Made by a program: the position numbers and the translations under genes | DNA from: Coriobacteriia bacterium | GTDB lineage: Bacteria; Actinomycetota; Coriobacteriia; Anaerosomatales; PHET01 | Direction of reading: 5' to 3' | DNA length: 36,563 nt | Assembly: GCA_009779675.1 (NCBI GenBank) | Contig: WRDS01000007.1 | Location: 1 to 36,563, forward strand | The notes under the pieces: generated by a model | What the model was told of the DNA's origin: nothing | The model's input: only the letters and a program-made list of their open reading frames with translations | Database searches by the model: none | Shown here: in pieces, positions 12,015 through 16,307 of the stretch | Layout of the letters: every line of letters begins with the position of its first letter | How positions within the stretch are numbered: position 1 is the stretch's first letter

Positions 12015-12713
12015 TTACTTGATCCGCCTCACTGAGACAAGTTCGGCCTGGGCGATATAGCGGTAACGGGCGCTATACGGCGGATGGCACGCAACCATCG
12101 TCAGCATGGGCTTCTCGGTGGACTCGGCAACATCACCTCGGTTCGGGGCCACTTGGAACAGATCGACCACCTCATAGGTGTACTCCCGATACGGCGAGAT
12201 GAACGAGACCGTGTCGCCCACCTGAAGCTTCTCGATATGCCGGAACGGGGCCTTGTAAGTAACCCTGTGTCCGGCAACCCCGAAGTTGCCCGTATCCCCC
12301 GGAAGGTCGCTCCACGTGATCCAACCAGGACCCTTGGTCAGGTCAGAGGAGCTGGTCCCCTTTACCACAAAGGAGTCTAGCCCCATTGGCCGAGCAACCA
12401 GCCGACCGAGCGGCTGACCAGGGGAAAGCCCTTCAAAATAGGCTCGGTCCTCCTCTTCCCAGCCATTGAGGTCAAAAGCGTCATCCTGCGCCGCCGTGGT
12501 CGCAATAGTTTCAGTAGGCACGGTATTTGCTGCACTACCTAGTTCAGATGCAAGTCTACGTTGCTCAAGCAGCGTAAAAAGATCTGTGAGCACATAGTAG
12601 GAGAGTAGGCCGACGGCAATGCCGAAAAAGACGTTCCCGAAAGAACGCAGCAACACTTTTGAAAGTGGGTTTTTGCCTGTTGACCCAGACATACGCGCAG
12701 ACCACGCCCCCAT
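12015..12713 (-). CDS. Class E-like sortase
   Basis: Sortases are membrane cysteine transpeptidases that attach or polymerise surface proteins. The 232-residue product has a cytoplasmic basic N-terminus, one transmembrane helix (about 24-46), a variable linker, and the sortase barrel with catalytic His149 in GVAGHR, Cys209 in TMVACHPPYSAR and Arg216 or Arg218. The C-H-P context after the cysteine resembles the TLTTC(H/N)P of class E sortases of actinobacteria. No protein in this window ends in a recognisable LPxTG or LAxTG sorting signal, so the substrate is elsewhere. No clear ribosome site precedes the ATG at 12713; Met8 is an alternative. It heads an operon with the epimerase. Confidence 0.9.
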   Translation of the reverse strand: MGAWSARMSGSTGKNPLSKVLLRSFGNVFFGIAVGLLSYYVLTDLFTLLEQRRLASELGSAANTVPTETIATTAAQDDAFDLNGWEEEDRAYFEGLSPGQPLGRLVARPMGLDSFVVKGTSSSDLTKGPGWITWSDLPGDTGNFGVAGHRVTYKAPFRHIEKLQVGDTVSFISPYREYTYEVVDLFQVAPNRGDVAESTEKPMLTMVACHPPYSARYRYIAQAELVSVRRIK

Positions 12714-12852
12714 CTAGAACGCTTTCAAGAACACCTGCAAGAAATGCTCCAAAAAAATTCTGGTTTGCTCGGAAAACTGTAGGTATCCGCTAAAGATTCT
12801 ACCCTGTCTGCCGATAGTAAGAGCGTAATTGAAAACAGCACAAAGCGCCCGA

Positions 12853-12945
12853 TCCCAGAAAAGGCACCGCGCGCCGAAAGGCCGCTTCGCAAAGTCACGG
12901 GTCTAAAAGAGGGAACACCCTCCTACGACAGCCGGACCGCCGGGA
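12853..12945 (+). promoter_or_regulatory. Cyclic di-GMP-I (GEMM) riboswitch aptamer
   Basis: The untranslated leader has the elements of the class I c-di-GMP aptamer in the right order. A closing helix TCCC/GGGA (12853-12856 with 12942-12945) is followed by a helix capped by a GAAA tetraloop (12876-12879), the conserved CGCAAAG joining segment (about 12888-12894), and ACGGGTCTAAA corresponding to the tetraloop receptor. Next come a perfect P3 hairpin GAGGG-AACA-CCCTC (12909-12922) and the CTACGACAGCCGG 3' strand. These are the conserved GAAA, GCAAAG and CTAA blocks of the family. The ligand call (c-di-GMP rather than cGAMP) is inference. It precedes the secreted HExxH protein at 13043. Confidence 0.8.
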
Positions 12946-12966
12946 CGAAACCTCGCTGACTCGTCA

Positions 12967-13007
12967 GGCCCGGTTTCCACCCAGCAACTTTATGGGGGAA
13001 CCGGGCC
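12967..13007 (+). terminator. Switch hairpin downstream of the riboswitch (terminator-like expression platform)
   Basis: GGCCCGGTT (12967-12975) pairs with AACCGGGCC (12999-13007), extended inward by CC/GG pairs, giving a strong helix before the gene. The U-tract after it is weak (GTTATGTGT). A competing pairing GAAACC (12947-12952) with GGTTTC (12972-12977) reaches from the edge of the aptamer and excludes the hairpin, as expected for a terminator/antiterminator switch. Confidence 0.6.
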
Positions 13008-13042
13008 GTTATGTGTCCAGCCGAAACTGGAGGATACAAACG

Positions 13043-13657
13043 ATGTCAGTATTTCGCCGCATTCAGATCGTCACCGCAGTGCTCATTGCAGTAGCGGGTG
13101 TCACCGCTTGGGCGTTCTCGGCCAATATCATGGCAGGTGCGTCTACCTCGTTCATGCCTGGCCTTGAGCCTGCCAGCCGCACGCAGGTCACTATCGCAAT
13201 CCCCGATGACGAGCCCTTGGCAACCTTCACCACCCAAGAGAAACAGTTCTCCAGAGTGGTCAGCTCTCCAAAGGCAAAGGCCACCCAGGGCGTACGCTCT
13301 TACGCAGCAAGCAGCGGCAAGAAGGGTTCGGCATTTGCTCCGGCCCCCACCGCCCCACCGAAGAACCCGTCAGTAAGCCTGTCGCAAGCCGAAAAACTCG
13401 CCCTCGCACAGGCGATCCTCGATGAGCAGATCGCAAAATACCCGATCCTTGCGGGCACAACGGTCTCCTTTGGCGATGCACGCGGCTACCAGGCGATCGC
13501 CTACTACACGACCGGCCGCATCATCATCAGCCCGAACCACACGACCTCGCTTGAGAAGATCATTTCCCACGAGGTATGGCACATCATCGATTGGCGCGTC
13601 AATGGAAGAATCGCTTGGGGCGAGAACGTCCCCCGAACCGATTGGGTCCCACAATAA
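13043..13657 (+). CDS. Small secreted HExxH protein, putative metallopeptidase, under riboswitch control
   Basis: The 204-residue product has a signal peptide or N-terminal membrane anchor (about 6-32), a long linker with an Ala/Pro-rich stretch (about 95-108), and a compact C-terminal region containing IISHEVWHIID (HExxH at 176-180), the hallmark of zinc metallopeptidases. A possible third zinc ligand is Glu194 in WGENVP, 14 residues later; the protein ends at residue 204, so the fold is short for a gluzincin. The ATG at 13043 has GGAGG nine bases upstream, while an in-frame ATG at 12992 lies inside the switch hairpin and is rejected. A strong terminator follows, so the gene is a single transcription unit. 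Activity is inferred from one motif; the family is not recognised. Confidence 0.75.
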   Translation: MSVFRRIQIVTAVLIAVAGVTAWAFSANIMAGASTSFMPGLEPASRTQVTIAIPDDEPLATFTTQEKQFSRVVSSPKAKATQGVRSYAASSGKKGSAFAPAPTAPPKNPSVSLSQAEKLALAQAILDEQIAKYPILAGTTVSFGDARGYQAIAYYTTGRIIISPNHTTSLEKIISHEVWHIIDWRVNGRIAWGENVPRTDWVPQ

Positions 13658-13706
13658 CCTCGATACCTGCCTCTCCTCGCCCCGATTCTTCTTCCCCCAT
13701 AATAAG

Positions 13707-13750
13707 CCGACTGCCCGGGTCTGATACGGATCCCGGGCAGTCGGTTTTTT
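13707..13750 (+). terminator. Intrinsic terminator after the HExxH gene
   Basis: CCGACTGCCCGGG (13707-13719) and its exact complement (13732-13744) form a 13-bp stem with a 12-base loop, followed directly by six T residues (13745-13750). It closes the riboswitch transcription unit just before the convergent lon gene. Confidence 0.95.
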
Positions 13751-13796: not shown

Positions 13797-16142
13797 TTAG
13801 CCCTCCTGCTTGCCGGTCAATAGGGCATGCTTGAGCACCTCGTCCATACCGCCTACCGGGATAATGGCAAGGTCGTCACGTACGTGCGGCGGCAACAGGT
13901 CCAGATCCCGCAGGTTGTCCTTCGGGACAAGCGCCGTTGTTATGCCCGCCCGATGAGCAGCAAGCAGCTTTTCTTTAAGCCCGCCGATAGGCAGCACCCG
14001 CCCCCTTAGGGTTATCTCCCCGGTCATCGCCAGATCACGCCGCACGGGGATACCTGTCAGCACAGAAGCGAGCGCGGTTGCCATGGTGATCCCGGCACTC
14101 GGCCCGTCTTTTGGGATTGCCGCAGCGGGAACATGGATGTGCAGGTCGTTCTTCTCGGGAAAGGACTCGGGGATCTCAAGGCGTTTCGCACGCGTGCGGA
14201 TGTATGATATCGCCGCCGTCGCCGACTCCTTCATCACATCCCCGAGCTGACCGGTCAAGGTCACCTGGCCCTTGCCCGGCATGATCGTAGCCTCAATAGA
14301 TATGATGTCCCCTCCGGTCTCGGTCCAGACAAGCCCAGTTGCGACACCGACCTCGTCCTTTGCCTCGGCGAGGCCGTAGGTGAACTTGGGGGGCCCAAGG
14401 TATTTGTGGAGCGTGCGCGCAGAGACCGTCGTCTTGCCCTTCTTGCCCTCGACGACCTTACGGGCGACCTGGCGGCAGATCATCGCGATGGTGCGCTCTA
14501 AGTTGCGGACTCCCGCCTCACGCGTATGCCGCCTGATGATCTCACATACCGCATCCTCTTTGATGAGGAGCTTGCCCGATGTCAGCCCGTGCGCTTTGAT
14601 CTGTTTGGGGATGAGGTACTTAAAGGCGATGTTGACTTTCTCGTCCTCGGTGTAGCCGGGGAAGTGAATGACCTCCATCCGGTCACGCAAAGGTGTCGGA
14701 ATCGGGTCGAGCAGGTTGGCGGTGGTTATAAACATCACATTGCAAAGGTCAAAAGGCACTTCAAGATAGTGGTCCTGGAACGCATAGTTCTGCTCGGGGT
14801 CGAGCACTTCAAGGAGCGCCGAGGTCGGGTCGCCCCGGAAGTCCATGCCCACCTTGTCGATCTCATCCATCATGAACACGGGGTTGCGTGTGCCTATCGT
14901 CGATATCGACTGGATGATGCGACCGGGCAGGGCGCCGACATAGGTCCGGCGGTGCCCACGTATCTCGGCCTCGTCACGCACCCCGCCAAGGGACATGCGG
15001 ATGAACTCCCGGCTGAGAGTACGGGCGATCGAGCGGCCGATCGAGGTCTTGCCCACCCCGGGGGGGCCCACAAAGCACAGGATGGGGCCGCGCATCGTAT
15101 CGGTGAGCTTGTGCACGGCCAGGTACTCGAGGACGCGCTCCTTTACCTTCTCAAGGCCGTAATGGTCCTCGTCCAAGATCTCTTGGGCGGCAACAAGGTC
15201 GAGCTTCTCCTCGGACTCGATATTCCACGGCAGCCCGACGAGCCAATCCAGATAGGTGCGGATGACACCGGTCTCAGCGCTTGCCGCAGGCATCTTCTCA
15301 AGCCGCCCCAGTTCCTTTAATGCCTTCTTCTCCACATCCTCGGGCATGCTTGCGGCCTTGATCTTCTCGGTATACTCGTCGATCTCAGCCTGCACCTCGT
15401 CAAACTGGCCGAGTTCCTGCTGAATGGCCTTGAGCTGCTCGCGCAAGAAGTACTCCCGCTGCGATTTGGTCATCTGCTCTTTGACGCGGCTTTGGATCTT
15501 GCTGCCGAGCTCGAGTATCTCCAGCTCCTGCCGCAGGAACAGCGCTGTCTGCTCAAGCCTTGCCGCAGGCTCGATGGCCTCAAGGATCTGCTGTTTCTCC
15601 TCGACTTTAGGGTTTAAGTGGAACGCCACAAAGTCGGCGAGGCGGCCAGGCTCCTCGATCGCGGCGGCGGCGGCAATCACTTCTTGCGGGATCGGCTTGC
15701 CGAGTTCGGCCGTACGCTCGAAATCGCCGAGCAACGCCCGCATGAGCGCCTGTATCTCTACGTTGACCTGCGTCGACTCCTCAATGGGCTCGGCACGCAC
15801 AAGGAAGAAGGGGTCGGTCTGGACAAACTCCAGGATGCGGAAGCGCTGCCGCCCCTCGATAAGCGCTTTTGCGGTGCCGTCCGGCAACTTGAGCTCTTGC
15901 ATCACCGTTGCCGTGCAGCCGATCTCATAAAGCTCGTCTGGCTCAGGGTCCTGGACCTCGGCACGTAGCTGCGTGGTAAGCGCAACCAGGTGCTCCTCGC
16001 GCATGGCCTTCTCCAGGGCCCTTATCGACCGCTCCCGCCCGACAAAGAGCGGTACCACCAGATTCGGGAAGAGCGTCATGTCCCTCAACGGAATCAGCGG
16101 CAAAAGAAGCTCAGTCGGTGTAGTTTTCTTGGATTTTGGCAT
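13797..16142 (-). CDS. lon: ATP-dependent protease La (Lon)
   Basis: Lon degrades misfolded and regulatory proteins in the cytoplasm. From the ATG at 16142 the product is 781 residues, the usual length. It has the N-terminal LAN substrate domain (about 10-200), a coiled segment, an AAA+ module with Walker A GPPGVGKT and Walker B FMMDEIDK, and the C-terminal protease domain with catalytic Ser in PKDGPSAG and Lys in [10 protein letters not shown]. The ATG at 16142 is chosen because GAAAGGA lies about 10 bases upstream; an in-frame TTG nine bases earlier would sit almost on that site. Its upstream region is occupied by the 24-bp tandem repeats. A typical actinobacterial HAIR heat-shock operator is not seen. 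Confidence 0.97.
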
Positions 16143-16169
16143 GCGTGACAAATCCTTTCAGCTATCTAC

Positions 16170-16307
16170 TACTGCGTCGTGCCATAATCAAGCTACTGCG
16201 TCGTGCCATAATCAAGCTACTGCGTCGTGCCATAATCAAGCTACTGCGTCGTGCCATAATCAAGCTACTGCGTCGTGCCATAACCAATGTTCGTGCCATA
16301 ATCAATT
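16170..16307. repeat. 24-bp tandem repeat array between lon and a secreted-protein gene
   Basis: Four exact copies of a 24-base unit beginning TACTGCGTCGTGCCATAAT start at 16170, 16194, 16218 and 16242. A fifth diverged copy starts at 16266, and a shortened sixth lies at about 16290-16307. There are no spacers, so it is not CRISPR. Each unit contains TGCCATAAT on the plus strand, which resembles an extended -10 element pointing toward the gene at 16399. The array lies in the divergent region between lon and that gene. Confidence 0.95.

Follow-up and report, generated by a model that had tools for sequence, protein, structure and literature searches.

Two unrelated classes of c-di-GMP riboswitch act in opposite directions on surface attachment in C. 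difficile, where class I represses zmpI/PPEP-1 and class II activates CD2831, and PPEP-1/ZmpI cleaves the class II-activated, sortase-anchored proteins (PMC6366702). In the actinobacterium Rubrobacter, type IV pili are governed by the sigma factor WhiG, which itself answers to c-di-GMP (PMC8325347). The minigluzincins (selecase, projannalysin and proabylysin) share a metallopeptidase fold of about 100 residues, with HExxH in the active-site helix. For Coriobacteriia, a search of the open-access literature turned up no work on c-di-GMP riboswitches, and it found none on the protease family described here either.

We analysed a 36,563-nucleotide stretch of DNA from a Coriobacteriia bacterium (hereafter “the window”), whose draft genome is 1.89 Mb long and 94% complete. 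An earlier note on this DNA had proposed that a riboswitch and a small HExxH protein in it form a c-di-GMP-driven attachment and release switch. We consider it probable that the locus is the protease half of such a circuit, from which the adhesin has been lost. The features on which this reading draws are as follows.

12015-12713, minus strand: sortase gene, 232 residues, probable class E (Pfam Sortase, 2.2e-26), divergent from the protease gene
12791-12816, plus strand: sigma-28/WhiG-type promoter, TAAAG-N14-GCCGATA, exact consensus
12817-12852, plus strand: conserved 5' leader, which in relatives supplies the 5' sides of the helices OUT and ANTI-SD, degenerate in the window
12853-12944, plus strand: c-di-GMP-I (GEMM-I) riboswitch aptamer (RF01051, 51.3 bits)
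12967-13007, plus strand: strong platform hairpin without a U-tract, from sequence and folding, with an equivalent in relatives' leaders
13013-13037, plus strand: local hairpin covering the Shine-Dalgarno GGAGG (13029-13033) in the minimum free energy structure
13043-13657, plus strand: exported 204-residue HExxH protein, a predicted minimal zinc metallopeptidase, with HEVWH at residues 176-180
13568-13582, plus strand: codons of the HEVWH motif, whose H, E and H are invariant in 46 homologues
13707-13750, plus strand: intrinsic terminator with a perfect 13-bp stem and T6
13797-16151, minus strand: lon protease gene, from the open reading frame and neighbour table; in relatives the LPFTG adhesin gene sits between the protease gene and lon
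Elsewhere in the window genome (G000:C17, L157, about 9156 and 10836), minus strand: two type IV pilin promoters, sigma-28/WhiG-type

The observation made at this locus in the earlier note is confirmed. The aptamer is matched on the plus strand over the full RF01051 model (cmscan, model positions 1-87, E 2.4e-7, gathering score 35 bits), and is the sole RF01051 match in the draft genome. The exported protein has a GGAGG ahead of its open reading frame and ends, as claimed, 24 residues after its HExxH, and the terminator behind the gene is present (arms 13707-13719 and 13732-13744, then TTTTTT). The divergent gene certainly encodes a sortase; its assignment to class E is likely rather than firm, because class_E is the best NCBIfam class model but scores 105.7 bits against a curated cut-off of 160. 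That gene had also been called an operon back to back with the protease; of the 40 loci of the order in which the protein is linked to a riboswitch, 39 show the divergent arrangement (the remaining locus lies at a contig end), but the conserved neighbour is a single gene and the word “operon” is loose. Just 5' of lon, at about 16130-16300, we also observed a tandem short repeat translated as CHNQATAS.

To place the locus in context we used 61 genomes of the order, which are related and include many metagenome-assembled genomes, so that counts across them do not represent independent events. They hold 57 class I riboswitches, 40 of which lie directly upstream of a member of the protease family, and a protease homologue is present in 44 of the 61 genomes. 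When 297 genomes of the phylum were searched with a profile, nine more family members turned up outside the class, and the remaining sampled genomes of the same class gave none; five of these nine loci from other classes again have a class I riboswitch upstream. With 40 loci in the order and five of nine elsewhere in the phylum, the linkage of riboswitch and protein exceeds chance. Several of the distant loci are cassette-like: at two of them (L265 and L269) the riboswitch-protease gene converges on a gene whose product ends in LPYTG or LPFTG, at another (L268) it is convergent to a sortase and an LPYTG protein, and at a fourth (L266) it lies beside a sortase. At three loci without a riboswitch (L270-L272), neither a sortase nor an LPxTG-type neighbour was seen. 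The association is therefore not limited to one order.

Among the relatives, gene order is fixed, running from the dnaK side through the divergent sortase, the riboswitch-protease unit and a convergent LPFTG-protein gene to lon. The LPFTG gene lies directly downstream of the protease gene in 36 of the 40 linked loci; at one locus (L109, G024:C111, 7500-9500) two tandem riboswitch-protease units precede a single LPFTG gene. The encoded proteins span 550-2070 residues, being shorter where contig ends cut them, and all those of the cluster end in EPFLPFTG or a close variant, followed by a hydrophobic stretch and basic residues (RRR). Domain searches of three of them found SdrD_B, SpaA, DUF11 and DUF7507. 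By this signature, the LPFTG proteins are sortase-anchored and of adhesin type. Internal LPFT or LPYT motifs occur in them 23 times against 1.1 expected (e.g. L083, L098, L102 and L107), typically as EEFLPFT some 155-169 residues short of the C-terminus or as a tandem copy immediately ahead of LPFTG, and also appear in L268 (9221-10067) and L269; they are candidate cleavage or second sorting sites.

Riboswitch-linked protease and adhesin co-occur almost perfectly. By profile search, LPFTG proteins are present in 40 of the 61 genomes; 38 genomes have both a riboswitch-linked protease and an LPFTG protein, one has the linked protease alone, two the LPFTG protein alone and 20 neither (Fisher p 7e-13, with kinship ignored). 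Joint losses fall inside five families (f4, f6, f11, f12 and f15). Six genomes retain the protease without an LPFTG protein, and none of the five that have a protease but no linked riboswitch encodes one. The sole genome with a linked protease and no LPFTG protein is that of the window, the atypical one of the set, where lon directly follows the riboswitch-protease unit, the LPFTG gene is missing from its usual place, and a profile search of the 94%-complete draft found none elsewhere. A single match to an LPFTG DNA pattern in this genome proved to be internal and out of context, and was rejected.

The adhesin genes carry a riboswitch of their own. Class II aptamers (RF03169) lie at the 5' end of the LPFTG gene in eight of nine loci scanned and, genome-wide, at 24 of the 28 LPFTG open reading frames whose start is present; the four exceptions are one in G017, one stub and two genes that come second in a tandem whose first gene has the class II switch. 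Each of the 24 aptamers is followed by a hairpin whose 5' arm consists of the aptamer's last 7-15 nucleotides, and in 19 a T-rich tail comes after the hairpin. The ligand-folded aptamer and the terminator would therefore compete, and this anatomy indicates that the class II switch turns the adhesin ON by antitermination. No class II riboswitch was found in the window genome.

The direction of the class I switch is harder to read. Its leader (12826-13045) folds at -81 kcal/mol, with a z of -3.9 against shuffles. The switch hairpin that the earlier note had described is present, at 12967-13007, but is followed by no U-run, and therefore forms no terminator by itself; we ruled out a terminator role for the platform hairpin, as the U-tract is absent in the window and in most relatives. 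The relatives' leaders instead share three conserved long-range helices: OUT pairs GCACATCG in the 5' leader with CGATGTGC 3' of the hairpin, SEC pairs the bases directly 3' of the aptamer with those directly 5' of the Shine-Dalgarno, and ANTI-SD pairs the 5' flank of the aptamer with the Shine-Dalgarno itself. Since OUT crosses both SEC and ANTI-SD, the leader has two states, which differ in whether the ribosome site is open or hidden. In 17-18 of 20 non-redundant leaders, pairing between cognate strands is stronger by 3.3-3.6 kcal/mol than pairing between strands of different relatives, a difference absent from three control region pairs. These co-varying helices can hide or expose the ribosome site of the protease gene, and the platform probably works translationally. 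In the window, the leader helices are weak and a local hairpin covers the ribosome site instead.

We regard it as fairly likely that the class I switch is OFF with c-di-GMP, because the adhesin has the opposite, ON design and because of the precedent in C. difficile. Folding calculations favour neither direction: the hidden state is about 14 kcal/mol the more stable with or without P1, and the coupling to P1 is near zero. The converse, that ligand turns the protease on, seems unlikely. High c-di-GMP would then bring about synthesis of adhesin and protease alike, and in sessile cells the protease would serve to process the surface layer or turn it over. This reading draws on the ground state of the leader, which already hides the ribosome site and which ligand could open. 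We saw no feature that links ligand binding with the open state; moreover, cutting the adhesin while it is being produced would be self-defeating, and the known counterpart in C. difficile is OFF.

The usual cassette of the relatives comprises a divergent sortase gene, a protease gene behind a sigma-28-type promoter and a class I riboswitch, and a convergent LPFTG gene behind a class II riboswitch. Taking OFF as the preferred direction of class I, the adhesin would, at high c-di-GMP, be switched on via antitermination and anchored to the wall by the sortase, with the protease held low; when c-di-GMP drops, the protease would be made and the adhesin released. The window genome encodes 5-6 GGDEF proteins. 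The suggestion in the earlier note of an attachment and release switch like that of PPEP-1 gains strong support from the convergent adhesin gene, its class II riboswitch and the co-occurrence of adhesin and protease, and the neighbours of the homologues (class I riboswitch and divergent sortase) agree with it; these comparative data back the reading better than the window itself does. We infer that the adhesin is the substrate of the protease, and judge the circuit as a whole, with the window as its protease half, to be a probable account. Because the adhesin is missing from the window locus and was not found in the draft, the protease of this organism may be a survivor of the circuit or may have another substrate.

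A further alternative is that the HExxH protein serves the sortase pathway as a maturation or housekeeping factor, for example by trimming or degrading mis-sorted substrates, with c-di-GMP doing no more than adjusting its amount to the output of adhesin, and that it does not free adhesins so that cells can detach. The sortase gene does adjoin the protease gene even where the LPFTG gene and the riboswitch have been lost (G008, G021 and G034), remains beside it in the window, and LPFT-like motifs recur close to the sorting signal, all of which a housekeeping role would accommodate. We nevertheless find this doubtful. Adhesin and protease are under opposite riboswitch classes, as they are in C. 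difficile, and this is more in keeping with opposed than with joint expression. Secreted hydrolases and proteases are also what the order's other class I switches control, and this points to dispersal. Read from their sequences, the products behind the class I riboswitches that are not linked to the family are exported glycanase-like proteins, a beta-helix protein and subtilisins. Unlinked class I riboswitches (L126-L142) were also seen to precede a PAS-type sensor, and may mark a dispersal-enzyme regulon.

Release of the adhesin presumes that the HExxH protein is a protease. Searches of Pfam and NCBIfam gave no worthwhile match to the 204-residue protein, and PDB sequences gave none beyond one chance match at E 0.98. 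Its 46 homologues are 36-58% identical to it and keep the motif, as residues H176, E177, H180, D183, W192, E194 and P197 (window numbering) are invariant; HExxH is also retained in a second branch of the family, from other classes. AlphaFold2 predicts a helix-strand-strand-strand-helix core (mean pLDDT 85) with HExxH within the last, second helix (core 81-98), and a tail bearing E194 at a pLDDT of only about 70-80. The top Foldseek matches of the model are the minigluzincins selecase, jannalysin and abylysin (probability 0.9-1.0, TM about 0.5, best E 7e-3), followed by IrrE-type proteins and MATCAP; PPEP-1 is not among the best 50 of 209 matches. The protein had been thought a possible new minimal metallopeptidase fold, and its lack of a sequence relative in Pfam, NCBIfam and the PDB agrees with novelty; the model, however, resembles the minigluzincins, and it is therefore probably an unnamed new family with a known small fold. 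The invariant E194 is the likeliest candidate for the third zinc ligand, and we infer that the protein is an active protease with a zinc site. That it is not a protease, now or ever, and that HExxH either has some other metal-binding function or has merely persisted as a relic in the lineage of the window, is very improbable: the tail behind HExxH is very short, no sequence relative has a known activity, and the window lineage has no adhesin and a weakened leader, but the seven invariant residues at such divergence, the motif kept in the second branch and the match to known minimal metallopeptidases all argue against it.

The promoter places the protease gene in a wider programme. A TAAAG/TCAAG/TAAGG-like-N15-GCCGATA element precedes all 40 linked loci, with its -10 part about 43-54 nucleotides upstream of the class I aptamer. 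Promoter scores of at least 10/12 occur at this fixed place in 39 of the 40, compared with 17 when 2000 random positions were scored and 24 among 2000 shuffles, and the exact TAAAG-N14-GCCGATA occurs at six sites in the window genome against none for the reversed pattern. As a sequence, TAAA-N15-GCCGATA is the FliA/SigD/WhiG consensus, and sigma-28 presumably drives the protease gene. A FliA/WhiG sigma gene scores above cut-off in 59 of the 61 genomes; in the window genome it is a 77-residue piece at a contig edge (G000:C81:2-232), where the cut gene keeps the xerC and trmFO neighbours that it has in relatives. None of the 61 genomes has flhA, a gene of flagellar export, in agreement with published work that describes Coriobacteriia as lacking flagella (PMC10746217). 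The same element stands upstream of the major type IV pilin gene and of a minor-pilin operon in the window genome, and before the major pilin gene in four of six relatives checked (G014, G036, G050 and G006). Given this shared element and the WhiG control of pili in Rubrobacter, the protease probably belongs to a surface-motility programme. An RsiG-type anti-sigma motif, E(X)3S(X)2R(X)3Q(X)3D, was absent near whiG in 20 stretches scanned. Near position 1500 of two stretches (L207 and L229), a gene for a FlgM-like protein of about 80 residues (Pfam FlgM E 0.18, weak) lies directly behind a sigma-28-type promoter; its product might act as an anti-sigma factor on the WhiG/FliA that has been kept.

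If the proposal is true, the opposed use of two unrelated c-di-GMP riboswitch classes on an adhesin and its releasing protease has evolved at least twice, with unrelated proteases, and would be no quirk of one pathogen but a design that Gram-positive bacteria use generally to attach reversibly. It would also assign a role that can be tested to a conserved family of proteins without a name, account for the flagellar sigma factor kept by a lineage without flagella, and provide a simple module for attachment and release in bacteria of environmental biofilms and of electrodes (EMTCatB1, for example, comes from a thermophilic biocathode; PMC5347234).

Among the closest known systems is that of C. 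difficile, in which a class I riboswitch likewise acts on a small secreted HExxH protein, PPEP-1/Zmp1 (CD2830), with the adhesins CD2831 and CD3246 (PMC6366702, PMC4591827). The class II riboswitch on a sortase-anchored adhesin is a second likeness, seen here in the relatives and not in the window genome, and the adjoining of protease and adhesin genes, judged there by locus number, is a third (PMC6366702, PMC4591827). Unlike C. difficile, the cassette described here belongs to another phylum, its protease has no detectable sequence kinship to PPEP-1, it includes a sortase gene and a directly convergent adhesin gene, and it combines a sigma-28-type promoter with a probably translational class I platform. 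The minigluzincins are archaeal; no sequence similarity to them was found for our family, which is exported behind a low-complexity linker. With the WhiG-RsiG system of Rubrobacter, the system described here shares a flagellar-type sigma factor that an actinobacterial lineage without flagella has retained, TAAA/GCCGATAA promoters in front of genes for type IV pili, and c-di-GMP in the same programme (PMC8325347); unlike in Rubrobacter, the promoter here also sits at a riboswitch-gated protease. On balance, we lean towards a complete two-riboswitch circuit that arose in Actinomycetota independently of that in C. difficile, with a new exported minimal-metallopeptidase family dedicated to LPFTG adhesins, and that came under a flagellar-type sigma factor which, in this flagellum-less order, now runs type IV pili.
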